Shown: piece after piece, positions 5,644 to 39,745 of the stretch
Layout: each line of letters begins with the position of its first letter
Position numbering within the stretch: the first letter of the stretch is position 1
Assembly: GCA_009692065.1 (NCBI GenBank)
Contig: SHZY01000032.1
Location: 1 to 46,552, forward strand
Length of the DNA: 46,552 nt
Source: Gemmataceae bacterium
GTDB lineage: Bacteria; Planctomycetota; Planctomycetia; Gemmatales; Gemmataceae
Reading direction: 5' to 3'
Made by a program: the position numbers and the translations under genes
The notes under the pieces: model-generated
The model's database searches: none
Seen by the model: the letters and a program-made list of their open reading frames with translations, nothing else
Told to the model about the DNA's origin: nothing

Positions 5644-5703
5644 CGTTTAGCGCCCGCCCGACCGCGGGTTTTACCTCTGACGCTTTCGCGTGGGCGCTAA
5701 ACG
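5644..5703. repeat. Interrupted palindrome, TTTAGCGCCCGC family
   Basis: CGTTTAGCGCCC (5644-5655) and GGGCGCTAAACG (5692-5703) are perfect inverted arms around about 36 nt that includes another GC-rich segment. It sits between trpE and the rpmE promoter. It shares its arms with 10881-10924 and 29346-29383. Confidence 0.75.
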
Positions 5704-7294: not shown

Positions 7295-7332
7295 CGTTTA
7301 GCGTTCGCGTGACGCAATGCGAACGCCAAACG
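7295..7332. repeat. Palindrome between prfA and prmC, TTTAGCG family
   Basis: CGTTTAGCGTTCGC (7295-7308) and GCGAACGCCAAACG (7319-7332) form a 14-bp stem with one mismatch and a 10-nt loop. It ends 16 nt before the prmC start, between two genes that are normally cotranscribed. Confidence 0.7.
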
Positions 7333-7348: not shown

Positions 7349-8227
7349 ATGGCCACCGCCACGGAACAGGTCTGGACCCTCGGTGCCTTGCTGGATTGGA
7401 CCGCCAAGCACCTCGCCGAGAAAAACATCGACACCGCTCGCCTCGATGCCGAAGTGCTGCTCGCCCACGCCGTCGGCTGTAATCGCATCGATCTTTACGG
7501 CAGCCGCTACTCGGAGGCGGCGTCTGCCGAAGTTAAGCAGAAATATCGCGAAATGATCCGCAAACGCCTCGAGGGTTGCCCGGTGGCGTATCTCGTTGGC
7601 CGCAAGGAGTTCTACGGGCTGGAGCTCAAAGTTTCGCCCGCCGTCCTCATCCCGCGACCCGACAGCGAGCATGTCGTCATGGAGTGCTTGACGCTCGCCA
7701 AGGCGATGAACAGGCCGCGCATCGTCGATATCGGCACCGGTTCCGGCAATCTCGCCATTGCCATCGCCAAGCATCATCCCGGGGCAGAAGTGACGGCTAT
7801 CGACAAGAGCGTGGATGCACTCAAGGTCGCGCAAGAAAACGCAGCCAAGCTTGGCGTCGCCCAGCGAATCCGTTTTCTGGAAGGCGATCTCTTTGCGCCG
7901 CTCGGGGCCGACGAACAGTTTCATTTCATCGTCAGCAATCCCCCCTACATCGCCGAGGAAGACGTTCCGAAGCTGCCGGTCGGCGTACGTCAATTCGAGC
8001 CTCTGCAAGCTCTATCAGGCGGCCCAGGCGGCTTCGTCGTGTTCGATCGCTTGATCGCGGAGAGCCGAGCGCGACTTCTGCCGGGCGGCTATCTAATTGT
8101 CGAAATCGGCTCGCCGCAAGAGAAGCCCGCATGCGAAAAACTGACGGCAATCCCGGAGTTTTCGCTGGCGCCGACCGTTTTCGATTTTTCGGGACATCCA
8201 CGCGTGCTGCGCGTCCACCGAAAATAG
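7349..8227 (+). CDS. prmC: Release factor glutamine methyltransferase
   Basis: The product is 292 aa from the second ATG (MATATEQVWTLGALLDWTA). An ATG four codons upstream is also possible. It uses S-adenosylmethionine to methylate the GGQ glutamine of release factors. A helical N-terminal domain is followed by a Rossmann methyltransferase domain. That domain has VDIGTGSGNLAIAIAKHHP (SAM binding), VTAIDKSVDALKVAQENA, and FIVSNPPYIAEEDV with the NPPY motif at residues 197-200. Adjacency to prfA supports the assignment. Confidence 0.93.
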   Translation: MATATEQVWTLGALLDWTAKHLAEKNIDTARLDAEVLLAHAVGCNRIDLYGSRYSEAASAEVKQKYREMIRKRLEGCPVAYLVGRKEFYGLELKVSPAVLIPRPDSEHVVMECLTLAKAMNRPRIVDIGTGSGNLAIAIAKHHPGAEVTAIDKSVDALKVAQENAAKLGVAQRIRFLEGDLFAPLGADEQFHFIVSNPPYIAEEDVPKLPVGVRQFEPLQALSGGPGGFVVFDRLIAESRARLLPGGYLIVEIGSPQEKPACEKLTAIPEFSLAPTVFDFSGHPRVLRVHRK

Positions 8228-8270
8228 CCGCTTGCGGCGTAGCATCCTCGCGTGCCACGTCGCAAGCGGC
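8227..8270. repeat. Palindrome after prmC, CCGCTTGCGGC family
   Basis: GCCGCTTGCG (8227-8236) and CGCAAGCGGC (8261-8270) are perfect 10-nt arms. The centre contains a degenerate GTAGCATCC...CGCG segment resembling the inner TTAGCG arms of other elements. Confidence 0.6.
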
Positions 8271-8285
8271 GCGGTGGATTCCTGC

Positions 8286-8316
8286 TTGACAACCGGGCAC
8301 TTTTTCGCCACGATAG
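8286..8316 (+). promoter_or_regulatory. Weak candidate promoter before the DUF1549/DUF1553 gene
   Basis: A perfect TTGACA (8286-8291) is followed after 19 nt by CGATAG (8311-8316), about 70 nt before the ATG at 8388. The spacing is long and the -10 poor. Confidence 0.25.
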
Positions 8317-8387
8317 CCTTGTAATCACCCGCCTTGCGACCGTACCGTTCCGCGTTTCCTGCCAGCTGATCTTTCGAGGATTCCGCG

Positions 8388-10868
8388 ATGTTCCGTGCAG
8401 CGCTTGTATCGTTCCTCATCCTTCCCGGACTCCTTGCAGCACAGGAATCCAAGACGCCGGTGAAATTGACGCCGGTAGTCCACGCCGAGCCGCCCAAATC
8501 GGCATTGCAGAAGCTCTCGACCTACCCCGGCCAGATCGACTTCACCGGCCCGCGCGATGAGCAGCGCATTGGCATCGTCGGCGAGTTCGCGGACGGCCGA
8601 ACCTGGGAGCTGACGCGAACCGCCAAGTACACGAGCGCCAATGCGAAAATTGCCGAAGTCGATGCGGCCGGCATCGTGCGCCCGGTCGGCGACGGGCAGA
8701 CGACGATCACCGTTGAGGCGAACGGCAAGAGCCAAACGATCCCAGTCAAGGTGACGAAAGCGACTGCCGACATCCCGGTCAGTTTCAGCCGCGAGATTGT
8801 GCCGATCTTGACGCGGTCCGGCTGCAACAGCGGCGCCTGCCACGGCTCGCAGCATGGCCGCGGCGGGTTCAAGCTCAGCCTGTTCGGCTTCGATCCTCTC
8901 TTCGATCACCCGCAGATCGTGCAGAGTGCCGAGGGCCGGCGCGTGGTGCTGAGCGATCCGGAGCGCAGCATCTTCATGATGAAGCCGGCCCTCTTGATGG
9001 AGCACGGCGGCGGCGAACGCATCAAGGTAAACGCACGAGAATACACCTACTTCAAGCGATGGCTCGAGGACGGCGCGCCGGAGCCGAGTGCCAAAGATCC
9101 GGAGGCCACGTCGCTCGAAGTTTGGCCCGCTCGCCGCATCATGATCCCCGGCGAACAGCAGCAAATCCTCGTCAAGGCAACCTGGAAGGACGGCAAGGTC
9201 GAGGACGTGACGGCGACGGCGCAATTCGACACGCTCAATGACGGCGTGGCAGGCGTCAGTCCGAGCGGCCTCGTTACCGCCAAATCGCGCGGCGAGACGC
9301 ATGTCATGGTGCGATTCATGGGCCAGGCGACCGTCTTTCAGGTGACGCTGCCCTATGGAAAATTCGACAAGCATCCCGATGTTCCGAAGCACAACTTCAT
9401 CGACGAGAAACTGATCGCCAAGTGGAAAGACCTCGGCCTGACCCCGTCGCCCCTGTGTGCTGATGACGAGTTCTTCCGCCGCGTCCATCTCGACGCGATC
9501 GGCACCCTACCGACGCCCGAAGACATCCGCACGTTCCTCGCCGACAAATCACCCGACAAGCGAGCCAAGGCGATCGACAATGTCTTGAATCGCTCCGAGT
9601 TCGTCGATTTTTGGGCCCTCAAGTGGGGCGACCTGTTACGCATCAATCGCGATGCCCTCAATGAGCGAGGCATGTGGAGCTTCCACAATTGGGTGCGAGG
9701 CAATCTCCGCGACAACAAGCCGATCGACGAGATGGTGCGCGATATCGTTACCGCCGAAGGCAGCACCTACACCGAAGGCCCCGCGAATTTCTTCATCGTC
9801 GGCAACACTCCGGCGGATTGGGCCGAGACGACTTCGCAGCTTTTCCTCGGCGTTCGTATCGGTTGTGCAAAGTGCCATCACCATCCGTTCGAGAAGTGGA
9901 GCCAGGACGATTACTACAGCATGGCCGCCTTCTTTGTTCGCCTCGGCACGAAGGGGAGCCAGGAGTTCGGCATCTTTGGCCGCGAGCGGGTCGTCTACCT
10001 GAAATCGGTCGGCGAACAAACGCATCCGCGCAAAGGAGGCGTCGTCAAGTCGCGCCCGCTCGACGGCGTCGACATGAACGACCCGATCGATCGCCGCGTC
10101 AAACTCGGCGAGTGGATGACGGCGGCGGACAATCCGTTCTTCGCCAGGAACATAGTCAATCGTTTCTGGGGCTACATGATGGGCCGCGGCCTGGTCGAAC
10201 CGATCGACGACATGCGTGCGACCAATCCGGCCAGCAACCCGGAACTGCTCGATGCGCTAGCGGCGGACTTCGTCAAGAACAAGTACAGCCTGCGGCATTT
10301 GCTGAAAACGATCATGAACTCCCGTGCCTATCAACTCAGCTCGATCAAGATACCGAGCAATGAACTCGACATCCAAAATGTCCACTATACGCGTTACACG
10401 GTTCGCCGACTCTCGGCCGAACAGATGGCCGACGCGCTCGACTTCGCCACCGGCACGCGGGAGAAGTACGCGGGCCTGCCGCTGGGCACGCGCGCGATTC
10501 AGTTGCCGGACACGTCCGTGAAGTCGTACCTGCTCGACGTTTTCGGGCGACCGGCTCGTCAGATCACCTGCGAATGCGAGCGGACGACGCAGCCGAACAT
10601 TGCGCAGGCGATGCACTTCCTCCACGGCGATGCGCTCAACAAGAAGATCGGCGCCCCGACAGGCAGGCTCGAAACGCTGCTCAAGGCGAAGAAAACGAAT
10701 GATCAGATTGTCGAGGAGATGTATTTGGTGACACTGTCACGGTTGCCAAATGCCGACGAGGTTGAGCGATCCCAGCGGTTCATCCGCGAATCGCCGACGC
10801 CGCGCGAGGGCTTGCAGGATGTGCTGTGGGTGCTGTTGAATTCGCGGGAGTTTTTGTTCAATCATTGA
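8388..10868 (+). CDS. Secreted DUF1549/DUF1553 protein with Ig-like region
   Basis: The product is 826 aa with a signal peptide (MFRAALVSFLILPGLLAAQ). Residues about 45-260 look like BIG2/Ig-like sequence (for example VDAAGIVRPVGDGQTTITV and GVAGVSPSGLVTAKSRGETH) split by a cysteine segment, SGCNSGACHGSQHGRGGFKL, near residue 145. Next is the DUF1549 (PSCyt2) region with FIDEKLIAKWKDLGLTPSP and DEFFRRVHLDAIGTLPTPED, a haem-type CAKCHHHPFEKWSQDDYY, and the DUF1553 (PSD1) region with NPFFARNIVNRFWGYMMGRG and LLKTIMNSRAYQLS. These domain sets are a planctomycete hallmark, and their biochemical role is not settled. The next two genes form a set often seen together in this phylum. Confidence 0.9.
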   Translation: MFRAALVSFLILPGLLAAQESKTPVKLTPVVHAEPPKSALQKLSTYPGQIDFTGPRDEQRIGIVGEFADGRTWELTRTAKYTSANAKIAEVDAAGIVRPVGDGQTTITVEANGKSQTIPVKVTKATADIPVSFSREIVPILTRSGCNSGACHGSQHGRGGFKLSLFGFDPLFDHPQIVQSAEGRRVVLSDPERSIFMMKPALLMEHGGGERIKVNAREYTYFKRWLEDGAPEPSAKDPEATSLEVWPARRIMIPGEQQQILVKATWKDGKVEDVTATAQFDTLNDGVAGVSPSGLVTAKSRGETHVMVRFMGQATVFQVTLPYGKFDKHPDVPKHNFIDEKLIAKWKDLGLTPSPLCADDEFFRRVHLDAIGTLPTPEDIRTFLADKSPDKRAKAIDNVLNRSEFVDFWALKWGDLLRINRDALNERGMWSFHNWVRGNLRDNKPIDEMVRDIVTAEGSTYTEGPANFFIVGNTPADWAETTSQLFLGVRIGCAKCHHHPFEKWSQDDYYSMAAFFVRLGTKGSQEFGIFGRERVVYLKSVGEQTHPRKGGVVKSRPLDGVDMNDPIDRRVKLGEWMTAADNPFFARNIVNRFWGYMMGRGLVEPIDDMRATNPASNPELLDALAADFVKNKYSLRHLLKTIMNSRAYQLSSIKIPSNELDIQNVHYTRYTVRRLSAEQMADALDFATGTREKYAGLPLGTRAIQLPDTSVKSYLLDVFGRPARQITCECERTTQPNIAQAMHFLHGDALNKKIGAPTGRLETLLKAKKTNDQIVEEMYLVTLSRLPNADEVERSQRFIRESPTPREGLQDVLWVLLNSREFLFNH

Positions 10869-10880
10869 TTCACCTGCTTT

Positions 10881-10924
10881 CTTCGTTTAGCGCCCGCGTG
10901 GCGCCACGCGGGCGCTAAACGAAG
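10881..10924. repeat. Perfect 44-nt palindrome, TTTAGCGCCCGCG family
   Basis: Arm 10881-10902 (CTTCGTTTAGCGCCCGCG plus TGGC) is the exact reverse complement of 10903-10924, with no loop base. It lies 13 nt after the stop of the DUF1549/DUF1553 gene and 13 nt before the ATG of the next gene. It has no T-run. A copy differing at the centre is at 29346-29383. Confidence 0.9.
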
Positions 10925-10936
10925 ATGGAAGTTGCC

Positions 10937-12544
10937 ATGCGCTGGTTGTCAATCCTATTGCTGTTGTTGGTCACGATGCCGGCGTCCGCGCAAACTGACC
11001 TCACCTACTGGCAGGACATCCGCCCGATTTTCCGCAAGCATTGCACCGCTTGCCACAGCACGAAGAACCTGAACAAGGTCGAGGCATCCGGCGGCCTGGC
11101 TCTCGACACGTTCGAGGCAGTCAAGAAAGGCTCTCGGCAATCTGTCGTCACGCCAGGCAAGAGCGATAAGAGCCTGCTCCACGAATTGCTGGTAACATCT
11201 GACGTCAAACGGCGCATGCCGCTCGAATCGGATGCGCTGTCGAAGGAAAAGACCGAGCTGGTGAAGCGCTGGATCGATGCCGGCGCCAAGGAAGGCACGC
11301 CGCCGCTGGAAGTCGCGGTTGGGCCGACGAAGAAGACGCTTACGCGCAAGCTCGACGTTGTCCTGCCGACCGGTGCGATCTTACCCGCGGGATTCGCGGG
11401 CCCCAAGGTGGCCGGCAAGCTCGACCTGGTAATGAAGATTGGGCCGCTCGCACCGGTCACCGCCGTCGCCTTCAGTCCGGACAACAAGTTGCTTGCGGCG
11501 GGGAGCTACGGCCAGATCGTAATCTGGGACCTTAACGAAGCCAAGCCGGTCAAATTGCTCACGAACGTCCTCGGCGCTGTCAACGATCTCCGCTTCTCGC
11601 CGAAGGGGGACATCCTCGCGGTCGGCGGCGGACAGCCCTCGGCCAAGGGGGATCTGCGCCTCTATCAGACGACAGATTGGAAGCTGCTCGCAACCTTGCG
11701 CGGCCATGATGATGTCGTCTTTTCTCTGGCATTCACCCAAGACGGCAAGCAACTGGCGTCGGCCAGTTTTGACCATTCGGTAAGACTATGGGACGTTGCA
11801 ACCTCTGCCTTGCTCAAAGAATTCCATCACCATTCTGATTTTGTGTATGCCGTCGCGTTCAGCCCGGATGGGAAACGCCTGGTGTCCGCGAGCAAAGATC
11901 GTACGGTGGCGCTGATCGATATCGAGACTGGCAAGAGCGTCTTCACCTTCAGCGGCATGGAGCAGGACATCATGGCCGTTGCGTTTCACCCGGACGGCAA
12001 GTCGGTGATCTCCTCGGGCTTCGAAGCGAGTATCTACTGGTGGAACACGCAAACCGGCGAACGGATCAAGCTCCAGGGCGGCCACGGCATCGCGACGCAC
12101 GAGTTGGCATTCTCGAAAGACGGAAAACGCATCATCTCCGCTGGCGCCGATCGCACCGTGCGCTCCTGGGACGGCACCGCGGGCACGCTCGTCAAGGCGT
12201 TCCCAGTTGGATCGAGCGCGTACTGCGTTGCGATCATCGCCAACAACAAGCTGGTTGCCTCGGGCAGTTTCGATGGTCTGGTCCGGGTGTGGGACGAAGC
12301 CAGCGGCCGGCATCTAGTAACTCTACTTGGGCTGGCCGGCGAAAGCGACTCGCTCGATTGGCTGGCGTTGACGCCGGAAGGGTATGCGACGGGCGCCGAC
12401 AAGTTCATCGCGCAATCGCGCTGGCGCGTGAGTGGGCAGGAAGCGAAGGTCGATGCCGTATGGAGCGTGTTGCGCCAGCCGGCCCAGGTTGCTCGTGCGA
12501 TTCGCGGCGAGGCGGTGCCCACACCTGTTTTTCTCAAGAAATAA
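10937..12544 (+). CDS. Secreted cytochrome c (PSCyt1)-WD40 fusion
   Basis: The product is 535 aa. The ATG at 10937 gives a signal peptide (MRWLSILLLLLVTMPASAQ); an ATG four codons upstream touches the palindrome. The planctomycete cytochrome c domain follows: YWQDIRPIFRKHCTACHSTKN with haem motif CTACH, then GDRMP-like KRRMPLESDALS and WIDAGAKEG. From about residue 165 there are at least seven WD40-type repeats, for example VTAVAFSPDNKLLAAGSYGQ, SLAFTQDGKQLASASFDHS and VAFSPDGKRLVSASKDR. The beta-propeller probably mediates protein binding outside the cytoplasm. It is likely cotranscribed with the genes on either side. Confidence 0.88.
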   Translation: MRWLSILLLLLVTMPASAQTDLTYWQDIRPIFRKHCTACHSTKNLNKVEASGGLALDTFEAVKKGSRQSVVTPGKSDKSLLHELLVTSDVKRRMPLESDALSKEKTELVKRWIDAGAKEGTPPLEVAVGPTKKTLTRKLDVVLPTGAILPAGFAGPKVAGKLDLVMKIGPLAPVTAVAFSPDNKLLAAGSYGQIVIWDLNEAKPVKLLTNVLGAVNDLRFSPKGDILAVGGGQPSAKGDLRLYQTTDWKLLATLRGHDDVVFSLAFTQDGKQLASASFDHSVRLWDVATSALLKEFHHHSDFVYAVAFSPDGKRLVSASKDRTVALIDIETGKSVFTFSGMEQDIMAVAFHPDGKSVISSGFEASIYWWNTQTGERIKLQGGHGIATHELAFSKDGKRIISAGADRTVRSWDGTAGTLVKAFPVGSSAYCVAIIANNKLVASGSFDGLVRVWDEASGRHLVTLLGLAGESDSLDWLALTPEGYATGADKFIAQSRWRVSGQEAKVDAVWSVLRQPAQVARAIRGEAVPTPVFLKK

Positions 12545-12547
12545 GAT

Positions 12548-12610
12548 CTCACGCCAAGGCGCAAAGTCGCGAAGAATTTCACAATTTGCGCCTTTGCGGC
12601 TTTGCGTGAG
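12548..12610. repeat. Imperfect inverted repeat (CTCACGC...GCGTGAG)
   Basis: CTCACGCCAAGGCGCAAAG at the left and CTTTGCGGCTTTGCGTGAG at the right are inverted with a few mismatches around an AT-richer centre. It fills almost the whole gap between the PSCyt1-WD40 gene and the PPC gene. Similar AAGGCGCAAAG repeats are widespread in bacteria. Confidence 0.65.
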
Positions 12611-12636
12611 CTATGAGAGATGAAAGGATCAGATCG

Positions 12637-14691
12637 ATGAGATTCATGTCATCCGCCATTCTAGTCGCGTTCCTGACGGCGAGTCCAGTGCTCGCCCAGA
12701 CCTCGTTTCCGATGGTCACGCACGCTTATCCTGTGGCGCTCCAGCGTGGCACGACAACGGAGATTTCGGTCGATGGCCAAATGAATTTCGCCGGCGCCTA
12801 CAAGGCGCTCTTCGAGGGCGACGGCATCACCGCCGAAGTCACCAGCCCGCCGCCGGTGCCGAATGCCGTGATCAAGAGCGTCAAGATGAAGGTAACGGTC
12901 GCCAAGGACGCGCGGCTGAGCGTGCGCGAATTCCGCATCGCGACCTCAATTGGTTTGTCCTCGGTCGGTCAACTCGTCATCGTCGATGACCCCGTCGTGA
13001 TGGAATCGCTGAACAACAACACCCCGGCACAAGCGCAGGCCGTCAAGTTGCCCTGCGTCCTGGCCGGCAAACTCGAAGTCGTCGAGGATCTCGATTACTT
13101 CAAGTTCGAGGCGAAGGAGGGGGAGACTGTCACGTTTGAAATGTTCTGCGCTCGCCTGCAGGACAAGATCCACGACCTGCAAAAGCACGCCAAGCCGATG
13201 CTTACCTTGCTCGATAGCGACGGCCGCGAGCTGGCTGCAAACGACACGTTCTTCTTCGCCGATCCGATGCTGTCCTACAAGATTCCCAAGACCGGCACGT
13301 ATGTCCTGCAAGTGCGTGAATCAACCTACGATGGCGACCCGCGCTGGGTTTACGCCATCGTGGCGACGAATCAGCCGTACATCTCGCACGTCTTCCCGAT
13401 GGCGGGCAATCCCGGCCAGGTGATCGACGTCGAACCGATCGGCTCGGCGCGTGCCGCACAGGAAAAAGTTAAGCTGGCGATTCCCGGCACCTTCGGCGTC
13501 CAGCAAATCCAGCTCGACGTTGGCGGCAAGAAAACGAACCCGGCGACGTTCATCGTCAGCAAGTTGACGCAGTTCAGCGAACTCGAGCCGAACGACGAGC
13601 CAGAGAAGGCGAACCGCGTGACGCTGCCGATCGGAATCAACGGTAGGATCGGCAAGAAACGCGATATCGATCACTATGTCTTCGACGCGAAGAAGGGCAA
13701 ACCAATCCGCTTCGAGTTGAAGGCGCGTCGGTTCGGCACATTGCTCAATTCCTCGCTACATGGCATCCTCGAAATCATGACGCCCAAGGGGCTCGTCATC
13801 GCCTCCAACGATACGACTCATGGGCTGGAGGCATCGCTCGTCTTCACGCCGGCGACCGACGGCGATCTTGTCCTGCGCGTGCGCGATCTGAACAGTAAAG
13901 GCTCCGAGTCGGCCGTCTACAACGTCGAGGCCGACTGGGCGCTGCCGGACTTCACCGTGCGCTGTGATCCCGACAAGGCGATGATCGGTCCGGGGTCGAG
14001 TACCGCGTGGTACGTGCATGTGGTTCGCCAGCATGGCTTCACCGGGCCGGTCGAGATCGCGAGCAAGGGATTGCCGAAGGAGATCACCGCCAGCGCGCTG
14101 ACGATACCGGCGACGATGACGCAAGGCTTGATCGTGTTGACGGCCGCTCCGGACGCGACACTGACGGCGGCGAAGGTCGAGATCGTCGGCACCGCCAAGG
14201 CCAAAATGCCGGATGGCAAGGAGGAGACGTTGGTGCGCGGCGTGACGCCCAATCAGGAGATCTATCTTCCAGGCGGCGGCCGCGGACGGTTCGATGTCAA
14301 CATGCAGGCGGTGGCGGTGACGTCGCCATCGGATATCCTCAAGGTCGAAGTCAGCACCACCAACATCACGCTGAAGCCTGGCGAGGAAATCAAGATCGAG
14401 GTGACCCTGGAGCGCCGCGGCGATTACGACAAGGGAGTTTTTCTCGACATCCTCTTGCAGCACCTCGGCTCCGTGATGGGCAACCCGCTGCCGCCGGGCG
14501 TCACGATCGTCGGGGGCAAGAGCAAGACGCTGCTGGGCAATGGCAGCAAGGGCTTCATCACCATCAAGGCCGCTCCAAATGCGGAGCCGATCGACAACGT
14601 GCCGATCAGCGTGCTCGCCAATGTGTCGGTCAACTTTGTCGTCAAGCTGCATTATTCGAGCGTGCCGATTTTGATATCGATCAAGAAGTGA
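12637..14691 (+). CDS. Secreted protein with pre-peptidase C-terminal (PPC)-like domains
   Basis: The product is 684 aa. The ATG at 12637 begins a signal peptide (MRFMSSAILVAFLTASPVLAQ) and has AAAGGA about 11 nt upstream; ATG 12613 adds a non-conserved stretch. The N-terminal region is beta-rich (YPVALQRGTTTEISVDG). Two PPC-type modules follow: LEVVEDLDYFKFEAKEGETV...MLTLLDSDGRELAANDT, and ELEPNDEPEKANRVTLPIGI...RDIDHYVFDAKKGKPIRFEL...ASNDTTHGLEASLVFTP. The C-terminal third is more beta sandwich. It has no visible catalytic motif and is likely a structural or binding protein acting with the two upstream products. Confidence 0.82.
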   Translation: MRFMSSAILVAFLTASPVLAQTSFPMVTHAYPVALQRGTTTEISVDGQMNFAGAYKALFEGDGITAEVTSPPPVPNAVIKSVKMKVTVAKDARLSVREFRIATSIGLSSVGQLVIVDDPVVMESLNNNTPAQAQAVKLPCVLAGKLEVVEDLDYFKFEAKEGETVTFEMFCARLQDKIHDLQKHAKPMLTLLDSDGRELAANDTFFFADPMLSYKIPKTGTYVLQVRESTYDGDPRWVYAIVATNQPYISHVFPMAGNPGQVIDVEPIGSARAAQEKVKLAIPGTFGVQQIQLDVGGKKTNPATFIVSKLTQFSELEPNDEPEKANRVTLPIGINGRIGKKRDIDHYVFDAKKGKPIRFELKARRFGTLLNSSLHGILEIMTPKGLVIASNDTTHGLEASLVFTPATDGDLVLRVRDLNSKGSESAVYNVEADWALPDFTVRCDPDKAMIGPGSSTAWYVHVVRQHGFTGPVEIASKGLPKEITASALTIPATMTQGLIVLTAAPDATLTAAKVEIVGTAKAKMPDGKEETLVRGVTPNQEIYLPGGGRGRFDVNMQAVAVTSPSDILKVEVSTTNITLKPGEEIKIEVTLERRGDYDKGVFLDILLQHLGSVMGNPLPPGVTIVGGKSKTLLGNGSKGFITIKAAPNAEPIDNVPISVLANVSVNFVVKLHYSSVPILISIKK

Positions 14692-19036: not shown

Positions 19037-19963
19037 TCAGGAAAATCGATGTGTGTACCCGCGTGGCTCGATGCAGCGGCGCTGGCCGGCTTCTTCCAGC
19101 AGCAGCACGCGTTCGGTGATGAATTCGCCGGCGTGCGCCAGCGTGATTCCATCGATGGGCTGCGATTTTAGCAAGCGGGCCCCGTCGCCTGGATCGACCG
19201 CAAACGCCAGCTCGAAGTCTTCGCCGTCACTGAGGGCGTGATCCAACGGCGTCTTGCCGTCGCTCATTCTCAAGGCCGCCTCGCTGATCGGAATCCCGTC
19301 GGCAAACAGCACGGCGCCACAGCCGCTCTCCTCGCAAATGTGGAACGTGTCCGCGGCAAGCCCGTCGCTGATGTCGATCATGGCGTGAATGGGAGCATGC
19401 TGCTGAAGGAGCAGGGCCTCCTTGACGCGCGGCGTGAAATCGAGGTGTTTACCGAGGATGCTGCCGCCCAGGGGGCCGGTGACGACGAGCCAATCGCCTG
19501 GCCTGGCGCCCTGGCGACGGATCGTCCCTTGCGGCCCTGGATCGCCCAGGAGTGTCACATTGATCACGAGCCCGCCGGTCCAGGTGTTGGTGTCGCCGCC
19601 GGGTATTGAAGTGTCAAAACGATCCGCCATCTCGCGCAGGCCGGCGTAGAGTTCCTCGGCAAAGCCCAGGGACGGCCGTCCCTGGGCTTCCGATAAAGCG
19701 ACGCTGACGAAAGCCGCGATCGGCTTGCCCCCCATCGCTGCGATGTCGCTCAGGTTGGCAGCCATCGCCTTGCGGCCAACGCGGCGTGGGCCAACTTCGG
19801 CAAGGATGAAGTCGACTCCCTCCATCAGCATGTCCGTCGTCACGAGCATCGGCCGTCCGGTCGTCGTGCCGACGACCGCGCAATCATCCCCCGGCCCGAT
19901 GAGGATGCGCGGGCAAGATGGGGTTTGCTGGCGGATCCAGCGGATGTAGTCTAATTCTCCCAT
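19037..19963 (-). CDS. thiL: Thiamine-monophosphate kinase
   Basis: The product is 308 aa. It phosphorylates thiamine monophosphate to thiamine diphosphate with ATP. The ATG at 19963 (MGELDYIRWIRQQTP) matches the usual ThiL N-terminus and has GGAAAG upstream; the ATG at 20038 adds non-conserved residues. Family motifs seen are LIGPGDDCAVV, VTTDMLMEGVDF, RVGRKAMAANLSDIAAMGG, GGDTNTWTG, MIDISDGLAADTFHICEESG and LSDGEDFEL. No other thiamine genes are nearby. Confidence 0.93.
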   Translation of the reverse strand: MGELDYIRWIRQQTPSCPRILIGPGDDCAVVGTTTGRPMLVTTDMLMEGVDFILAEVGPRRVGRKAMAANLSDIAAMGGKPIAAFVSVALSEAQGRPSLGFAEELYAGLREMADRFDTSIPGGDTNTWTGGLVINVTLLGDPGPQGTIRRQGARPGDWLVVTGPLGGSILGKHLDFTPRVKEALLLQQHAPIHAMIDISDGLAADTFHICEESGCGAVLFADGIPISEAALRMSDGKTPLDHALSDGEDFELAFAVDPGDGARLLKSQPIDGITLAHAGEFITERVLLLEEAGQRRCIEPRGYTHRFS

Positions 19964-20121
19964 GGGATAGATTCTTTCCAATTTACGGGCCAGGTAGCTT
20001 GTGGCGTTTCTGCCAGCTTTGCGGTACAATACAATCACCTAAGCGAACTCCGGCCAAGATTTCCTCAAGTTTGTGCCCATTCCCACCGCGGGGGGGGCGA
20101 AAGTGTTGTAAAATTTACCTG

Positions 20122-20192
20122 CCAGCCCCGCGCGCAAGCGTGGGGGTTCATGCCCCGGACGAGCCGATCCCCACGCTTGCGCGTGGGGCTGG
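20122..20192. repeat. Long palindrome upstream of the WD40 gene
   Basis: Left arm 20122-20146 (CCAGCCCCGCGCGCAAGCGT plus GGGGG) and right arm 20169-20192 are inverted with about two mismatches around a 22-nt loop. It is about 37 nt before the WD40 ATG. There is no T-run. Confidence 0.75.
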
Positions 20193-20228
20193 TTGGTTAA
20201 AATCATTCTATGCTCCGGTGACGCTCGC

Positions 20229-22058
20229 ATGACCACCGCCACGATCGCGCAACAACCGTTCAAGAACAAGTTTACCTTCGGCGAGTCCAAGCTCCGTACC
20301 GATGGCGACGTGCTACTGGTAGCCTTCGGCAAGGACGGCTGGCTCTATTCCGTCGAGGAACTCGGCATTTTGCGGAAGTGGAATCCGGCTTCCGGTGAGC
20401 AGCTCGATTGCACGCCATTGAGCGACATGGAAACGCTGTGGGCATTCAGCGCCGACGGCCGCGTGCTCGCCTCCGCCAGCGACGAACTGGTCATCTGGGA
20501 CGCGGTCGCCGGGCAATTGTTGACGTCGATCCCGCAGCATTGCTGGATAACGGCCCTGGCGTTTCATCCCGATTCGAGTTTCATCGCGACGGGCGACGAC
20601 GATGGGGCCATTCACTACTTCGATGCGCCGGGCCATCATCCGGTCTTCGAAAAGGGCTTCGCCTACCACAAGAAAGCGATCAGCGCGTTGGCGATCAGCC
20701 CCGACGGCAAAAAGCTTGCCGCGGCCAGCGAAGACAAGCAGGTCACTGTCTGGGACCTTGTCACAGGCAAGTACATTGGCTGTCTGTCGGGCCATACCGA
20801 TCGTATTCCGGCGCTCGCCTGGCATCCGAGCAGCAAGTTCCTTGTCTCCGCCGGTTGGGACACGACCGCCCGCGTGTGGGACGCCGACACGCTGCAGCCC
20901 GTTATCCTGCTGAATACGCACGGCACCCAGGTCAACGCGCTCGCCTTCAGCCGCGACGGGCGCTGGCTGGCCTGTGCCGATTCAACGCACACTATTCACG
21001 TGTGGGACTTTACCACGAAGAAGACGGTCCACAAGCTCAAGGTCCCCGAGGCCGAATTGCGTTCGCTCGCCTTCAGCCCGGACGGCAAATACCTTGCCTG
21101 TAACGGCGATCGCATCCTGCATCTGTGGAATCCAGAAACCGGCAAGTCTTACGCCGACCTTGGCCCACGCCCGGTCGCCAAGACTTCGGTGTCGGTCCAT
21201 GCCGATGGCGCCAAGCTGCTCACCAACGGCGGCGGGAGCATGGTCCGCGTCTGGAATACCTCCTCGCGGCAGCCGATCACCACGCTAGATTCCGCCGATC
21301 CGATCAACGCCATCGCCTTCAGCCCAGACGGCAAGTGGATCACCAGTTCCATCGGCAAGCGCATTCGGCTCTACGATGCCACCGGGAAGTTCATCGCCGA
21401 CTGGGAAGATCTGGCCGATGCCCCCATCACAACCATCGCGTTCAGTGGCGATTCTTCGCTCCTGGTTTCCGCCGCCCGCGAAGGCCTCTCTGCCATCGTC
21501 TGGCGCGTCGCCGACGGTGAGCCGATCTTGCTTATCCCGGATGCACTCGACGGTTGTTCCATCGAAGCAGTCGCTTTTCACCCGGACAACAAGCAAGTCG
21601 TGATCGGCGGCGTCGATGCGCTGGCGACGACGACGACCGGCAACGATGGCCAAATCAGCATCTGGAACATCGACCAGCGGGTCGAAATCACCACCTTCCT
21701 GGATGGCACGACGGCCCTAGCTGTTCATCCTTCCGGTGATATCCTCGCCACCACGACCCTCGATCGTTCCATCTTCACCTGGGATCTGCATCTCAAACAA
21801 CTTCTGCAGGAACTTGTCGGTCACGATGGCCCCGTCAATTGCCTTGCTTTTAGCCCCGATGGCAACTGGCTCGCCTCTGGCAGTGAAGACCTGACCTTGC
21901 GCATCTGGGACGCCAAGGGGCGCGAACAGGTCGCCCTCGAAATGGAAAGCCAGGTCACCAGCGTCGCGTTTTCCGCCGACGGAAACTTCCTCTACACCGG
22001 GCACGCCAACACGACTTGCAGCCAGATTCAACTCCCCGATCTGCTGCAACGGAAATAG
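20229..22058 (+). CDS. WD40 repeat protein, probably cytoplasmic
   Basis: The product is 609 aa from the ATG at 20229 (MTTATIAQQPFKNKFTF), with no signal peptide or membrane segment. At least ten WD40 units cover almost the whole length, for example ALAISPDGKKLAAASEDKQV, ALAWHPSSKFLVSAGWDTTA, SLAFSPDGKYLACNGD and CLAFSPDGNWLASGSEDLTL. This is enough for two seven-bladed propellers. It probably acts as a scaffold. The Ser/Thr kinase gene follows on the same strand, and WD40-kinase links are common in planctomycetes, so a signalling role is a reasonable inference. Confidence 0.88.
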   Translation: MTTATIAQQPFKNKFTFGESKLRTDGDVLLVAFGKDGWLYSVEELGILRKWNPASGEQLDCTPLSDMETLWAFSADGRVLASASDELVIWDAVAGQLLTSIPQHCWITALAFHPDSSFIATGDDDGAIHYFDAPGHHPVFEKGFAYHKKAISALAISPDGKKLAAASEDKQVTVWDLVTGKYIGCLSGHTDRIPALAWHPSSKFLVSAGWDTTARVWDADTLQPVILLNTHGTQVNALAFSRDGRWLACADSTHTIHVWDFTTKKTVHKLKVPEAELRSLAFSPDGKYLACNGDRILHLWNPETGKSYADLGPRPVAKTSVSVHADGAKLLTNGGGSMVRVWNTSSRQPITTLDSADPINAIAFSPDGKWITSSIGKRIRLYDATGKFIADWEDLADAPITTIAFSGDSSLLVSAAREGLSAIVWRVADGEPILLIPDALDGCSIEAVAFHPDNKQVVIGGVDALATTTTGNDGQISIWNIDQRVEITTFLDGTTALAVHPSGDILATTTLDRSIFTWDLHLKQLLQELVGHDGPVNCLAFSPDGNWLASGSEDLTLRIWDAKGREQVALEMESQVTSVAFSADGNFLYTGHANTTCSQIQLPDLLQRK

Positions 22059-22244
22059 GATGAACCACGAGGACACGGGGAGTGAAAGCAACGAACCCTG
22101 GCTATGCCGCGATCGTACAGGTCGCAGAGAAAAACTGGGGCCTCGCCGGGGATCCGCGGAAATCACAATGAATGCCGCGGCTTCCAATCCTCTTTTCTTT
22201 CCCCGGGTCCCCCGTGGGGTGGTTCTTTTTCAGCGAAAGCCGCG

Positions 22245-23963
22245 ATGGACAACGCGATCCAACCCACTGATCGATTGGCCGCACCTACCGCCAACCTCGC
22301 CGACGAGGTCGATTGGACCGGACAGGTGCTGGGGGAATTTCGCCTGATGTACCGCATCGGCCGCGGCGGCATGGGGCAGGTCTATCTCGCCGAACAAACC
22401 TCACTCAAACGCAAGGTTGCGCTGAAGCTGCTGCACCCCGAGCTCGCTTCCAACGAGCGTTCGCTCTTGCGTTTCAAGGCCGAGGCCGAGAATGTCGCCC
22501 GCGCCACGCACGCCAACATCGTGCAGATCTACACCATCGGCCAGGCCAACGGCATCAACTACATCGCACTCGAATATGTCGAAGGCAAGAACCTGCGCGA
22601 GTACCTCGAGAAAAAAGGGACGCCCGAGCTATCCCTTGGTTTGCACATCATGGCCCAGGTTGCGGCGGCCTTGCAGCGTGCGAGCGAGCTCGGCATCATT
22701 CATCGCGACGTCAAGCCGGAGAACATCCTGCTGACGAAAAAGGGCGAGGTGAAGGTTGCCGACTTCGGCCTGTCACGCTGCTTTGCCGAAGAATCGCAGC
22801 AATCGATCACGCAGAGTCAAGTGACGATGGGGACTCCGCTCTACATGAGCCCCGAGCAGGTCGAATGCAAGACCGTCGATACGCGTACCGACATCTACTC
22901 GTTCGGTGTCACCTGCTACCACATGTTCGCCGGCACGCCGCCGTTCAAGGGCAACTCGCCGATCGAGGTCGCCTATCAGCACGTCCACAAGGATCCAGAG
23001 CCCTTGAGTGAAATCCGCCCGGATCTGCCCGCCGACTTGTGTGCGATCATTCAGAAGATGATGGCGAAGAAACCGGAGGAACGCTATCAGAACGCTCGCG
23101 AAATCCGGCGCGACATCAATCGCCTGCGCGAAACGTTGAACCTCGGCGCCGTGGCGGCGATCTCGATTTCCTCGTCGTTCATCGGCTCGCCAGCCGAGGC
23201 TCTTCGCAACATCGCCACCCAACCTTTCGGCGCGGCGACTGCCGTAACAGATCGAAGAGAGCGCCCCTGGCGGGTACGAACCATCTTGACCGGGGCCGTG
23301 CTCTTGGCTCTGGCGATCGGGCTGACCGCTGGCTGGTATCAAAACCAGCCCCCAGCGCAAGCGATTGGACAGGTCAAGCCCGCGGACCCTGTCGCCAAGG
23401 AAAAGAAGCCCACCCTGAAGGAGCGCGAGAAGGAATTGCGGCAACGCGTCGAGGAGAACCTCAAACCGGAAAGTCAGCTCGACGTGGTCTCCGGCCTGAA
23501 AGCGTGCACCGATATGGGGCTTTTCTATCTCAAGTACCGCCAGCTCAAGGAAGCCGACGACCACTTCCAGGATATCCGCAAGCCGGAGCGCAACGTTCCC
23601 GCCTACCGCTTTCTGGGCAGGCTTGGCCACGCCATGGTGCTCGCTTTCAAGGACGAGACCGCGGCTTCGAACAAGGAGTTTGTCGATTTCTTCGCCGGCA
23701 TCGAAAAATTCGAGGCCCGTGTCGGCGTGGGGCCGTTCCCCAAGATCGATCGGACCAAGGGCGAAAAGTTTATCGCCCTCAAGGACGAGATCGAGGTCTA
23801 TCGATTCCTGTGGAAGGAGAATCACGCCTCGATCCGCGAGGTCGCCGCCAAGGCGCTCAACCACAACCACGCCAATGACCCGAAGGGCTTCCCGGAAAAG
23901 CTCGATGGCTACCGCTTCCCGCCGCGGCCAACGCTGAAGGGGCCCGCGGGGCCGATTCCCTAA
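22245..23963 (+). CDS. Hanks-type Ser/Thr protein kinase with one transmembrane segment
   Basis: The product is 572 aa from ATG 22245; an upstream ATG at 22104 runs through repeat-like DNA. The kinase domain covers about residues 30-300. Visible motifs are IGRGGMGQVYLAE (ATP loop), VALKLLHPE with the catalytic Lys, IIHRDVKPENILL (catalytic loop near 153), VADFGLS, and MGTPLYMSPEQ for the activation segment end. A transmembrane helix, ILTGAVLLALAIGLTAGWY, is near residue 346. The remaining ~200 residues are charged and helical (LKEREKELRQRVEENLK) and are probably on the outer side of the membrane. All catalytic residues are present, so it is likely active. It follows a WD40 protein on the same strand. 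Confidence 0.92.
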   Translation: MDNAIQPTDRLAAPTANLADEVDWTGQVLGEFRLMYRIGRGGMGQVYLAEQTSLKRKVALKLLHPELASNERSLLRFKAEAENVARATHANIVQIYTIGQANGINYIALEYVEGKNLREYLEKKGTPELSLGLHIMAQVAAALQRASELGIIHRDVKPENILLTKKGEVKVADFGLSRCFAEESQQSITQSQVTMGTPLYMSPEQVECKTVDTRTDIYSFGVTCYHMFAGTPPFKGNSPIEVAYQHVHKDPEPLSEIRPDLPADLCAIIQKMMAKKPEERYQNAREIRRDINRLRETLNLGAVAAISISSSFIGSPAEALRNIATQPFGAATAVTDRRERPWRVRTILTGAVLLALAIGLTAGWYQNQPPAQAIGQVKPADPVAKEKKPTLKEREKELRQRVEENLKPESQLDVVSGLKACTDMGLFYLKYRQLKEADDHFQDIRKPERNVPAYRFLGRLGHAMVLAFKDETAASNKEFVDFFAGIEKFEARVGVGPFPKIDRTKGEKFIALKDEIEVYRFLWKENHASIREVAAKALNHNHANDPKGFPEKLDGYRFPPRPTLKGPAGPIP

Positions 23964-24268
23964 CTTGGACCGCGTTCCGGTGGTCCAGACTTGAATTGCG
24001 TGGATGGCCTTTCTTGGATCGTGATTAACTCCTCGATCCTCTGCAAACGCATTATTTCTCGGCGGATCTCATCCAGGTTTTCTTTGATCGTCCCAACCGC
24101 ACTGAAGACCGCGCAGATCGCGGCTACGGGTAGCGCTCCCATGATCGAAAAGACGAGATTTACCCCACGATCCGGACCACCGTGCGGCCAAGCCATCTGG
24201 AACATCGCACAGAATACGAGAAATCCGACGATCGCGCCAATCGCAGCCCAGATGATCATTCGAGGCAT
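23960..24268 (-). CDS. Small membrane protein with helical tail
   Basis: The product is 102 aa. Two hydrophobic segments (IIWAAIGAIVGFLVFCAMF and VFSIMGALPVAAICAVFSAV) are followed by a charged helix (IKENLDEIRREIMRLQRIEE) that could form a coiled coil. The start has AGGAGTG at good spacing. Its last codons overlap the 3' end of the convergent kinase gene by 4 nt. No family is recognised. Confidence 0.65.
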   Translation of the reverse strand: MPRMIIWAAIGAIVGFLVFCAMFQMAWPHGGPDRGVNLVFSIMGALPVAAICAVFSAVGTIKENLDEIRREIMRLQRIEELITIQERPSTQFKSGPPERGPS

Positions 24269-24289
24269 GATGACACTCCTTGCGGCAGA

Positions 24290-25606
24290 TTACGATGGAC
24301 CTGCCAGCCGCCGCACCAACTCTAGTCCTTCTTCGCGTGTCTTGATCGTCCCATCCAACTGAGCCTCGCGCACTGCATCCAGCAATTCCTTGTAGCGCGG
24401 CCCTGGCTGGATGCCCGTCTGCATCAGGTCGTGCCCCGTCACCAGTGGCGGTGGGTTCAGATCTTGCGGCGACCACTGGTGCAGCAATTGTTCGCAGTAT
24501 TCAACATGTTCAATGCTCTTGGGCGTCGCCAGCGCGTCGGCTCGGTGCAGCGCGAGCAGTTCGTGGATGCCCGGATCGCTCAGGATCACTTTGAGCTTGC
24601 TGGGCCGCATCTTCTTGGCGTCGGCCAGGTACTGGTGTTTCTCGACGAGCCAGACGATCCGCTCTCGCTCGGCGTTCGAGAGTTTTAGCCTTAGTGCGAT
24701 CTCGTCGGCCATGCGCGCGCCGACGTGCTCGTGGTGATAGAAGGTGTAACGGTCCGCTGTGCGATTTGCCGTCGGCGGCTTGCCGATGTCGTGTAAGAGC
24801 GTGGCCATCGCCAATGGGAACGACGCGTCAGGGCCGATCAAATCCAGCACGCGCATTACGTGGTCCCACAGATCGCCGGTGGGCTTGTCCGGCAGTCCCT
24901 TCATCGGCACGATCTCCGGCAGCACCGGCTCGGCCAATCCCAGGTCCATCAGGAGATTCAGGCCACGGACCCGGCGAGAGTGCACCAGAAGTTGCCGCAG
25001 TTCCTCAGCAATACGCTCGGCGCTTACAACCGGCAGTTGGCTCGCCATCGCTTGGATGGCTGTTTGTGTCTGCGGCTCGATCGCCAATTCGAAGCGTGTG
25101 GCGATGCGCACGGCCCGCAAGAGGCGCAGCTTGTCTTCTTGAAAACGCACGGCCGGGTCGCCGATGGCACGGAGGATGCGTGCATGCAGGTCGTTCTGTC
25201 CGCCGACGAAGTCGTGAAGTTCGCCCTTGATAGGATCGAAGAACATGCCGTTGACGGTGAAATCGCGGCGCAGGGCATCCTCGCGGGCCGAGGCGAAGAC
25301 CACCTGATCGGGCCGCCGGCCGTCGGAGTAGCCGCCGTCGGTGCGAAAGGTCGCGACTTGAACCTTGAGATTGTTGCCGTTCTCGCGCGGGCCAAGCACT
25401 TCGACGACGCCGAAGGTGGCGCCGATGGCAATCGTCCGGCGAAACAAGTTTTGCACCGCCTCCGGGACCGCGTTGGAGGCAACGTCGTAGTCCTTCGGCG
25501 TAAGTCCGAGCAATTCATCGCGCACGCACCCGCCGGCCCAGAGGGCCTGATGGCCGGCGTCTTGCAGCAGCTTGACAACAGAGATGGCGAACTCGCGTTC
25601 GGTCAT
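24290..25606 (-). CDS. cca: CCA-adding-type tRNA nucleotidyltransferase with HD domain
   Basis: The product is 438 aa. The N-terminal nucleotidyltransferase head has AGGCVRDELLG and KDYDVASNA (the catalytic D.D), then RRTIAIGATFGVVEV, RRDFTVNGMFFDP and LRLLRAVRIATRFELAIE. The HD domain follows, with TLLHDIGKPPTANRT and FYHHEHVGARMADEI. It adds or repairs the 3' CCA of tRNA. A related poly(A) polymerase or A-adding role cannot be excluded from sequence alone. The small membrane protein gene lies 21 nt beyond the stop on the same strand. Confidence 0.88.
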   Translation of the reverse strand: MTEREFAISVVKLLQDAGHQALWAGGCVRDELLGLTPKDYDVASNAVPEAVQNLFRRTIAIGATFGVVEVLGPRENGNNLKVQVATFRTDGGYSDGRRPDQVVFASAREDALRRDFTVNGMFFDPIKGELHDFVGGQNDLHARILRAIGDPAVRFQEDKLRLLRAVRIATRFELAIEPQTQTAIQAMASQLPVVSAERIAEELRQLLVHSRRVRGLNLLMDLGLAEPVLPEIVPMKGLPDKPTGDLWDHVMRVLDLIGPDASFPLAMATLLHDIGKPPTANRTADRYTFYHHEHVGARMADEIALRLKLSNAERERIVWLVEKHQYLADAKKMRPSKLKVILSDPGIHELLALHRADALATPKSIEHVEYCEQLLHQWSPQDLNPPPLVTGHDLMQTGIQPGPRYKELLDAVREAQLDGTIKTREEGLELVRRLAGPS

Positions 25607-25622
25607 GATAATGGAGAATCAT

Positions 25623-25770
25623 CCACGAAGGGCACCAAGGGCACGAAGGGAATAGGGGAAGGAATCGGTTGGCCGCTGCAGGTTGAGGAATTGTTTCTCG
25701 ATGCCATGTCGATAGAAGACTTAAATGGCCGCTTCTTCTTCCCCTTCGTGGCCCTTGGTGTCCTTCGTGG
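25623..25770. repeat. Inverted pair of CCACGAAGGGCACCAAGG-type repeats
   Basis: Copy 1 (25623-25650) reads CCACGAAGGGCACCAAGGGC and onwards. Copy 2 (25742-25770) is its near reverse complement, CCCTTCGTGGCCCTTGGTGT and onwards. They flank about 90 bp. Copy 2 lies inside the 3' end of the rsmD frame. The sequence type is found dispersed in many bacterial genomes. Confidence 0.75.
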
Positions 25771-26341
25771 ACAAGTTCTGAATTTCGCGCTGCCAGATCA
25801 GCAGCTCATTACGGCCATACTTGCGCCGTTCCCAATCGGGCAGAGCGTCATCGAGCGGGGAGCCGGTCTCGGTCTGCACCACGATCACCGAATCCTCGGC
25901 GACCTTGGCTTGCAGCTGTTGAAGGGCCTCGAACAATACGTCCGTGCGTTCCGTGAGATCGACAAACGGCGGGCTCAAGAAAACGTTCACCGGCTCCTTC
26001 GGCGCGACCCAGGCGGCGATCCAGCGGTAGGAATCGGTGCGATAAAGCTTTGATTGCCGCATGAGTTCGAACGTGCGCAGGTGCGACTCGATGTCCTTGG
26101 CAAACTGGGCGTCGCGCTCGATGAATAGCGTTTGCGTCGCTCCCCGGCTCATCGCTTCCATGCCGACGACGCCAGTGCCGGCGAAGATATCGACGAAAAC
26201 GCGATTCGGAATCGCGTTGCCCAGGATGCTGAAAAAGGCCTCACGCACCATCTGCGGCGTCGGCCGCAACGATTCGGTAACGGTGCAGCCGACCTTGCGG
26301 CCGCGCAAGGTTCCGGAGATGATACGGATGAAGGTACGCAT
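25721..26341 (-). CDS. rsmD: RsmD-like 16S rRNA (guanine-N2) methyltransferase
   Basis: The product is 206 aa from the ATG at 26341 (MRTFIRIISGTLRGRKV), the conserved N-terminus. It would methylate G966 of 16S rRNA. SAM-binding VFVDIFAGTGVVGMEAMSRG and TESLRPTPQMVREAFFSILG are typical. The catalytic motif usually read as D/N-PP-F/Y is here VFLSPPFVD, with Ser in place of Asp. The last ~16 residues (STKDTKGHEG...) are translated from a dispersed repeat and are not part of the family. The assignment is good; activity is slightly less certain because of the Ser. Confidence 0.87.
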   Translation of the reverse strand: MRTFIRIISGTLRGRKVGCTVTESLRPTPQMVREAFFSILGNAIPNRVFVDIFAGTGVVGMEAMSRGATQTLFIERDAQFAKDIESHLRTFELMRQSKLYRTDSYRWIAAWVAPKEPVNVFLSPPFVDLTERTDVLFEALQQLQAKVAEDSVIVVQTETGSPLDDALPDWERRKYGRNELLIWQREIQNLSTKDTKGHEGEEEAAI

Positions 26342-26354
26342 TGAATTTCCAATC

Positions 26355-26411
26355 GGCCGCTTGCGGCTTTGCGTTCGCACGGCGTCCGGTGGACGCTAAA
26401 CGGCGAGCGGC
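26355..26411. repeat. Composite nested palindrome upstream of rsmD
   Basis: Outer arms are GGCCGCTTGCGGC (26355-26367) and CGGCGAGCGGC (26401-26411). Inner arms are CTTTGCGTTCGC and GGACGCTAAACG. The outer arms belong to the CCGCTTGCGGC type and the inner to the TTTAGCG type, so the two families appear to be parts of one element. It starts 14 nt upstream of the rsmD ATG. Confidence 0.6.
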
Positions 26412-26631
26412 TCAGGTATCCCGCATCCTATCAGATCACGAAACGCTTGACAAACCGACGCCTGAAAATCGTGAAAGGTTCGTGAAACGTGGCAAAAGCG
26501 TATTGTTCTTGGCTGACTACAACGGTAAACTATTCGTACATGTCTTGATTGTCGCCTTCAAAAACCGATTTCCATGGGTCGGCGATCAGGTCGGACGAGG
26601 AATCAATCGAAGATTAAAAGGAGGTCGTTCG

Positions 26632-27423: not shown

Positions 27424-27439
27424 CGGCAGCCCGCTACCT

Positions 27440-27466
27440 CGTTCCCAGGCTCCAGCTTGGGAGCGA
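27440..27466. repeat. Short palindrome between the tandem PPC genes
   Basis: CGTTCCCAGGCT and AGCTTGGGAGCG form imperfect inverted arms around CC. It is an intergenic repeat type (CGTTCCCA...TGGGAGCG) common in other genomes. It sits between two paralogous genes and is not followed by a T-run. Confidence 0.5.
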
Positions 27467-27505
27467 CGGTGCGTACTCACATAACCCAAACCGCGAGGAC
27501 TACCC

Positions 27506-27949: not shown

Positions 27950-27966
27950 CGTACGCTTTCTTTTGT

Positions 27967-28013
27967 GGCTTAGCGCTCGCATGGTGCCTTGTGAGCGCTA
28001 AACCGTAAGCGGC
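27967..28013. repeat. Composite palindrome, TTAGCGCTCGC family
   Basis: TTAGCGCTCGCA (27970-27981) and TGTGAGCGCTAA (27990-28001) are inverted with one mismatch. The right side continues ACCGTAAGCGGC, an outer arm as in the element at 26355-26411. Confidence 0.65.
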
Positions 28014-29338: not shown

Positions 29339-29345
29339 AGTTTTA

Positions 29346-29383
29346 CGTTTAGCGCCCGCGTGGCACCACGCGGGCGCTAAACG
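29346..29383. repeat. Perfect palindrome, near-identical copy of 10881-10924
   Basis: CGTTTAGCGCCCGCGTGG (29346-29363) and CCACGCGGGCGCTAAACG (29366-29383) are perfect 18-nt arms around CA. Including GAAGAT at the right, it matches the 10.9-kb copy except at one central base. It lies between the converging queC and HtrA-like genes. Confidence 0.9.
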
Positions 29384-29396
29384 AAGATCGCGAGAT

Positions 29397-30818: not shown

Positions 30819-31128
30819 GATGTCCTCAGGTCCTGGCTTTTTTCGACTCGGCTGGATTGGCTGGGACGCATGTGCTTCCCCGTGTGTTTCGCGCACATGC
30901 ACTACTATGCTTTCGGCATCGCCTGGACCTTGCCTAAGTTTCCTGGGTGCAGTTTCGAATCTTGCTCCCTGCCGACGATGGATAGAGCCAAAGACGACGA
31001 GCCTTCCCGTCCAGCGAAGATGGCAAGGGGGCGAAAGCTCCACGATTGTGCGGGTTTTCTTGTGTGCCTGGTAACCGTAGAATTGCTCCAGCCGGTAAAG
31101 CTTGCCTGACTTATGAAAGAAGCCCCTC
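30819..31128. other. Divergent intergenic region between the protease and TPR genes
   Basis: 310 bp with no convincing gene. It must hold promoters for the protease and the TPR gene, but no strong consensus was found by eye. Confidence 0.35.
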
Positions 31129-31446: not shown

Positions 31447-31473
31447 TTTCTCATGCCCTGGTCGTCAGAGCTC

Positions 31474-33516: not shown

Positions 33517-33532
33517 GGTACGTCCCCATATT

Positions 33533-39688: not shown

Positions 39689-39745
39689 GTTTAGCGCCCG
39701 CGCGTGGTACCACTTGTAAAAAAGTGGATCGCGTGGGCGTTAAAC
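39689..39745. repeat. Nested palindrome, TTTAGCGCCCGCG family
   Basis: Outer arms GTTTAGCGCCCGCGCG (39689-39704) and CGCGTGGGCGTTAAAC (39730-39745) are inverted with two mismatches. An inner CCACTT/AAGTGG pair lies around an A-rich loop. It is between the divergent-to-tandem minus-strand genes and about 90 nt before the Rieske start. Confidence 0.7.

Follow-up and report, generated by a model that had tools for sequence, protein, structure and literature searches.

The 46-nt palindrome at positions 10,880 to 10,925 of the window (the whole 46,552-nt stretch of DNA that was analyzed) is a full-length copy of a repeat with about 300 copies in the genome of a planctomycete, likely a member of the Gemmataceae; the repeat has probably spread as inserted DNA and lies mostly in the narrow gaps that follow a stop codon and precede the next gene. 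REP-like palindromes are common, yet their spread and their gathering behind stop codons are unsettled. The genus investigated here offers natural replicates, as different palindrome families occupy the same slots in genomes with about 93% identity, and one slot of this kind is found within an aminoacyl-tRNA synthetase gene for which many relatives carry no insert. This allows mobility and site preference to be told apart from each other and from selection for a 3' hairpin, and makes it possible to ask whether palindromes are exchanged as cassettes. This in-place replacement between sister genomes is the surprising part of the finding.

A sequence-only reading of the window had described a perfect 44-nt palindrome at 10,881–10,924. 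This palindrome is real (it equals its own reverse complement), and its symmetry continues for one more base on each side, giving 46 nt. Among the perfect loopless palindromes of the window it is the longest, and the chance of such a palindrome in 46.5 kb, calculated by us from base frequencies alone, is of the order of 1e-9. The core TTTAGCGCCCGCG has 15 matches in the window at two mismatches or fewer, against 3.0 expected, and none of 100 shuffles reached 15. The palindrome separates two genes on the same strand (Table 1). The earlier placing of a start codon 13 nt downstream needs a small correction: the likely ATG is found 11 nt past the 46-nt palindrome (12 nt past 10,924). The alternative in-frame ATG, which overlaps the last base of the palindrome, was the one chosen by our own gene finder; the downstream ATG, at 10,937, fits the orthologues in the congeners G001 and G005.

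Table 1. Copies of the repeat family in the window, with the genes next to the 46-nt palindrome.
Feature	Position	Strand	Remark
Family copy, 58 nt	5645..5702	.	10 nt behind stop codon
Family copy, 36 nt, TTCGC/GCGAA arms	7296..7331	.	17 nt before predicted start codon
Upstream gene, PSCyt2/PSD1 (DUF1549/DUF1553) protein	8388..10868	+	Stop codon TGA 10866-10868, 11 nt before palindrome
Perfect loopless palindrome, 46 nt	10880..10925	.	Full-length copy of the 304-copy repeat family
GGAAG, Shine-Dalgarno-like	10927..10931	+	Between palindrome and ATG 10937; by eye, putative
Downstream gene, WD40-repeat protein	10937..12544	+	Likely start ATG 10937; alternative in-frame ATG 10925
Family copy, 36 nt, one end GCTTAGCG	27968..28003	.	
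Family copy, 36 nt	29347..29382	.	Between converging genes
Family copy, 57 nt	39689..39745	.	10 nt from stop codon

Copies were counted in the source genome (G000, 5.97 Mb), in six congeners (G001–G006) and in a set of 95 genomes from 39 genera of the bacterial family. The exact end pattern GTTTAGCG-N16..46-CGCTAAAC occurs 304 times in the source genome and 77, 135, 119, 51, 163, and 77 times in G001 to G006, respectively, with 0–1 hits for the backward control. Similarly, the 13-nt core is found 201 times on both strands of the 5.97-Mb genome, compared to a single occurrence of the pattern read backward. At least one copy is present in 27 of the 95 genomes and 11 of the 39 genera. The largest counts outside the genus are 20, 18, and 16 copies, and in other genera the same ends surround different hairpin sequences, often two inverted hairpins. 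An exact copy of the 46-mer is also found in G005, where its location is not the orthologous one.

The position and structure of the copies were analyzed in 427 kb of the source genome, consisting of the window and the loci L034–L053, mostly chosen around known copies and around three matches to Y1 genes (see below). Genes were predicted with our own script, so that start codons are approximate. Of the 58 copies in this sample 55 are intergenic and three lie in predicted genes, one of them only 70 nt from the predicted gene end and possibly the result of a gene-call error; 86% of random positions are genic. A mobile palindromic repeat had been one of the options of the sequence-only reading, to be supported by hundreds of copies enriched in intergenic DNA, and this option is borne out by the genome-wide search and by the intergenic share of the sampled copies. 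The intergenic copies are distributed over 30 codirectional, 17 converging and 8 diverging gaps. Where a gene end faces the copy, the nearest facing stop codon is located within -8 to 22 nt in 44 of 47 cases, whereas with uniform placement 16% (counted per intergenic base; p 2e-31) or 46% (counted per gap; p 3e-12) would be expected. In the 17 converging gaps (of 55 intergenic copies), a stop codon is close on both sides. With a stop within 400 nt, 27 of 30 family copies fall in the stop-proximal zone, compared to 25 of 45 other strong intergenic palindromes of this genome. The predicted stop codon of the neighboring gene is supplied by the copy itself in four cases, through the TAG of GTTTAG or its mirror image (L038 17431, L046 13372, L049 14566, and L053 14316).

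Measured from GTTTAG to CTAAAC, the sampled copies range from 26 to 86 nt, and 34 of the 58 have a length of 36 nt, a form that is a single loopless palindrome in the source genome. Among these 34, each of the first 13 pairs is matched in 32–34 copies, but as the selection of copies allowed one mismatch at most in the 16 end bases and used a combined score favoring paired inner bases, the matching of the outer eight pairs follows from this criterion and that of the next five is mildly biased. Two of the pairs 9–13 covary (C-G in 26 and T-A in 6 copies; C-G in 20 and T-A in 13), and the central pairs are looser. The five bases adjoining each end come from a limited set (TCTTC, TCCTC, TCCCC, TTTAC, and others), and agreement between the two sides of the palindrome is 68%, versus 59% by chance; 0 of 1000 shuffles gave such a value.

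Only two copies in the 427-kb sample are convincingly located inside genes, and both are in frame. One lies in metG, encoding methionyl-tRNA synthetase. Among the best 30 of 93 genomes with a metG match, 28 were readable at this position (G032 and G084 were not read by the pattern), and in 23 of the 28, including the congeners G004 and G005, the stretch is 27 or 28 residues long and carries no insert. In G000, G001, and G002 an in-frame family copy makes this stretch 15–17 residues longer, with a palindrome that is strong in G000 (0/200 shuffles as good), fair in G001 (1/200) and weak in G002 (4/200). G003 has a strong palindrome of unrelated sequence at this codon position, and G006 has an 8-residue insert without a clear palindrome (17/200 shuffles); the metG of G105, without insert, also shows a weak inverted repeat, one matched by 0 of 200 shuffles. 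The reading as an insertion is strengthened by metG, since the in-frame copy stands where most relatives have no insert. The second copy is found at the end of the first UvrA unit in a double-length UvrA gene (2345 aa; L046 4609-11646), where a stop codon may have been lost through the insertion, fusing two genes. The repeat is likely inserted DNA that resembles REPs in gaps and Rickettsia palindromic elements (RPEs) in genes.

The slot between the PSCyt2/PSD1 and WD40 genes is filled differently in the sister genomes. In G005 a family member of 54 nt stands there, whereas in G001 the place is taken by a double hairpin with the GTTTAGC tag and in G003 by a palindrome of about 67 nt that is unrelated. 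In G006 and G004 the upstream gene is a different one and there is no strong palindrome at this slot; in G002 a clear orthologue of the downstream WD40 gene was not found.

Gaps were compared one by one between G004 and G006, a close pair with 93% identity over 122 kb, dropping hits below 80% identity and setting aside three gaps shorter than 20 nt (71 to 68). Of the 68 orthologue-anchored gaps, 24 share a palindrome, 3 hold a decaying one, 27 have none in either genome, 8 contain different palindromes in the same place (swaps), and in 6 only one of the two genomes passes the threshold. Between one and three of these last six are plain gains or losses: inspection by eye revealed one clean gain or loss, one messy case and one that is not interpretable (a length difference of 868 nt), together with two eroded copies of a common palindrome and one replacement by a weak inverted repeat. 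A GTTTAGCG or GCTTAGCG palindrome takes part in seven of the eight swaps, on one side or both (GTTTAGCG in two of the seven), and in the eighth neither is involved. Independent gains and losses at so low a rate would be expected to produce well below one double event. The excess of swaps thus points to direct replacement, to very fast refilling of the slots, or to selection for a hairpin, the last of which is disfavored as the whole answer because different palindromes share one metG position. In two swaps (L241 and L202) a remnant of the older palindrome apparently lies beside the new one, an impression rather than a count, and this would seem to fit insertion into the old palindrome followed by its loss. 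At about 1357-1450 of L241, a GTTTAGCG half copy is directly followed by the palindrome AAGCCCCACCA..TGGTGGGGCTT, as if one had been inserted into the other.

For the exact family, a clean empty site was not found in the pair G004/G006, where copies are common to both genomes, eroded or replaced; a comparison of empty sites across the congeners for target duplications was set aside, as the sequences are too diverged. GTTTAGC-tagged palindromes can insert, since at two places of apparently repeated sequence G004 has a double hairpin with this tag that G006 lacks, while the flanks match. The insertions, of 74 and 83 nt in L223 and L236, carry GTTTAGCCGCGACGCGCCAGCGGAGCG double hairpins. Tentatively, the slots at gene borders and the one metG codon position might act as sockets that swap cassettes of unrelated families, through recombination or hairpin processing acting on palindromes whatever their sequence, though we think such an exchange rather unlikely.

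Folding of the 80 nt of RNA around the palindrome predicts a stem of 20–21 bp at -45.6 kcal/mol, and 0 of 200 shuffles were as stable. The absence of a T-run, claimed by the sequence-only reading, is confirmed: none follows 10,880–10,925, and a terminator scan gave no terminator-like site there, in line with the opinion that the palindrome does not look like a terminator. Copies also occur between diverging genes and in metG. T-run terminators are not clearly enriched in the parts scanned (5 versus 4.7 expected in 8000–13000; 23 versus 18.5, sd 5.1, in 20001–40000), and for all these reasons an intrinsic terminator was rejected as the main reading. Rfam 15 gave no match above the gathering score in the window. 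A role in mRNA stability, also proposed from the sequence, remains a candidate because copies lie right behind stop codons and the predicted RNA fold is very stable.

Another explanation for the position of the copies would be a selected 3'-end device, i.e., a bidirectional terminator lacking a T-run or a protector of the mRNA 3' end, for which some hairpin is kept whatever its sequence. We consider it clearly unlikely, despite the tight spacing behind stop codons in 44 of 47 copies, the 17 of 55 copies flanked by close stops in converging gaps, a T-run hairpin that takes the place of the palindrome in one converging slot of G002, and the retention of a palindrome, though a changed one, in the slots of sister genomes. 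Such a device does not account for eight copies between diverging genes, for a family copy and an unrelated palindrome at one metG codon position, or for the 27 of 68 G004/G006 gaps that lack a palindrome in both genomes. In orthologous gaps of distant congeners a strong hairpin is present for 19 of 27 family slots, 13 of 26 slots with other hairpins and 26 of 55 hairpin-free slots, so that occupancy is only weakly higher for family slots; with this small difference, the deep comparison was discarded as a test of hairpin selection. Protein binding was the remaining option of the sequence-only reading and gains no support here. A site for a dedicated DNA-binding protein, belonging to a large regulon or serving as a nucleoid signal, would fit the perfect dyad symmetry and the conserved ends, but is very improbable for copies that lie mostly behind stop codons, occur in coding sequence as well and vary freely in center and length (26–86 nt).

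A classical REP/REPIN family is conceivable, though somewhat doubtful; the RAYT moving it would then either have been lost or lie in a part that the incomplete assembly lacks. High copy number and gap location agree with it, as does the GTTTAG tag with two inverted hairpins in other genera. The source genome has three Y1 matches, two over the curated cut-off, and each has palindromes of other families near or beside the gene. However, the element has no GTAG/GTGG or CGTC foot, its 36-nt copies are loopless palindromes, and a linked RAYT was not found among 83 Y1 loci of the bacterial family (some overlapping, most with 1.5 kb flanks). In these loci no Y1 gene has the element directly beside it, and complete copies occur in two of the 83, more than 1.2 kb from the gene; the missing link is not proof of absence, as the source assembly is 94% complete.

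Several Y1 genes were considered as the mobilizer and rejected. The best-scoring ones of the bacterial family are often flanked by CCCAGGG-type hairpins instead, and those in G032, G026, G035, G001, and G005 have no complete copy adjoining, with a half copy about 1 kb away in L130. A Y1 gene in L035 (7912-8496), which resembles class 3 (Y..HRQ motif, by eye), is flanked by hairpins with AGCGAGCC feet. Its relatives are found in 63 of the 95 genomes, and the recurrent hairpins in 30 loci mostly have a CGAG-type foot, not GTTTAG. A weak Y1 match in L036 (9744-10274) has CCCAGGGGTTCGGAGTACCTCACCCCTGGG palindromes on both sides, and GTACTCCGAACC occurs 88 times in the 2.28 Mb of sequence examined (overlaps included). 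The window itself contains a double palindrome, GCCCGCCGTTTACGGCGGG..CCCGCCGTAAACGGCGGGC, at 33533-33581, and similar CCCGCCGTYRACGGCGGG hairpins surround Y1 genes of G032 and G026 (L130 and L132). Palindromes of other families are also present at 19662-19689 (CCCAGGGACGGCCGTCCCTGGG) and 43032-43091 (TGGGACAGGATTCCAATCCTGTCC), the second of which recurs in L046 and L049.

For the reading that we prefer, a repeat spread as inserted DNA, we infer movement of the entire palindrome as a single-stranded hairpin, probably with the help of an enzyme acting in trans, for which a Y1 HUH nuclease would be the first suspect. Insertions are expected to survive where neither reading frames nor ribosome-binding sites are broken, and this would account for the location behind stop codons as well as for the few copies in frame. 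On the mRNA, the predicted hairpin of 20–21 bp behind the stop codon would protect the 3' end of the upstream message or cause it to be trimmed. Ribosomes that terminate there could also be slowed, as is reported for E. coli REPs in a similar position in work cited by PMC12306157. Both the mode of spread and the effect of the copies on mRNA are likewise inferred. Against this reading stand the absence of a Y1 gene with the element directly beside it, the want of a clean empty site for the exact family in the pair G004/G006, the weak metG palindrome of G002 and the swaps, which independent insertion and loss would hardly produce.

No published description of the repeat was found in the literature within reach, which comprised titles, abstracts and passages, with most subscription journals outside it. 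REPs have been reported in Planctomycetes (PMC3733652), and the string TTTAG is absent from the main text of PMC3733652, PMC6006769, and PMC12306157. Like intrinsic (Rho-independent) terminators, the palindrome is a strong GC-rich hairpin shortly behind a stop codon; unlike them, it has no T-run on either side, belongs to a repeat family and has copies between diverging genes and inside genes. Class 3 TnpA-Y1 proteins, with hairpins that have a CnGA foot, occur mainly in Planctomycetes, Acidobacteria and Proteobacteria, as described in PMC6006769. A class-3-like gene, classified by eye, is present in this planctomycete genome (L035), and the CGAG-type foot beside genes of its type is in keeping with the CnGA foot of class 3, but that foot differs from the GTTTAG of our repeat.

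The likeness to REP, REPIN and BIME elements lies in copy number and location: hundreds of short palindromes, mostly extragenic (304 copies; 55 of 58 sampled copies intergenic) and often just behind stop codons, with same-tag double inverted hairpins in related genera. In contrast to these elements, the ends are GTTTAGCG and CGCTAAAC rather than the GTAG or CGTC of REPs (no GTAG/GTGG or CGTC foot tetranucleotide is present in the 46-mer, as read from the sequence), the 36-nt form is one loopless palindrome, and some copies lie in a coding frame. As the REP tag is absent and the 83 Y1 loci gave no link to a RAYT, we do not file the repeat as a REP. With the RPEs it shares, by description (PMC10969869), the in-frame insertion into protein genes, here in metG, where 23 of 28 orthologues are without it, and at the end of a UvrA unit. 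The length of RPEs is about 150 bp, and nearly half of them were found within genes, as reviewed in PMC10969869, whereas our repeat is typically 36–57 nt long and intergenic in 55 of 58 copies.
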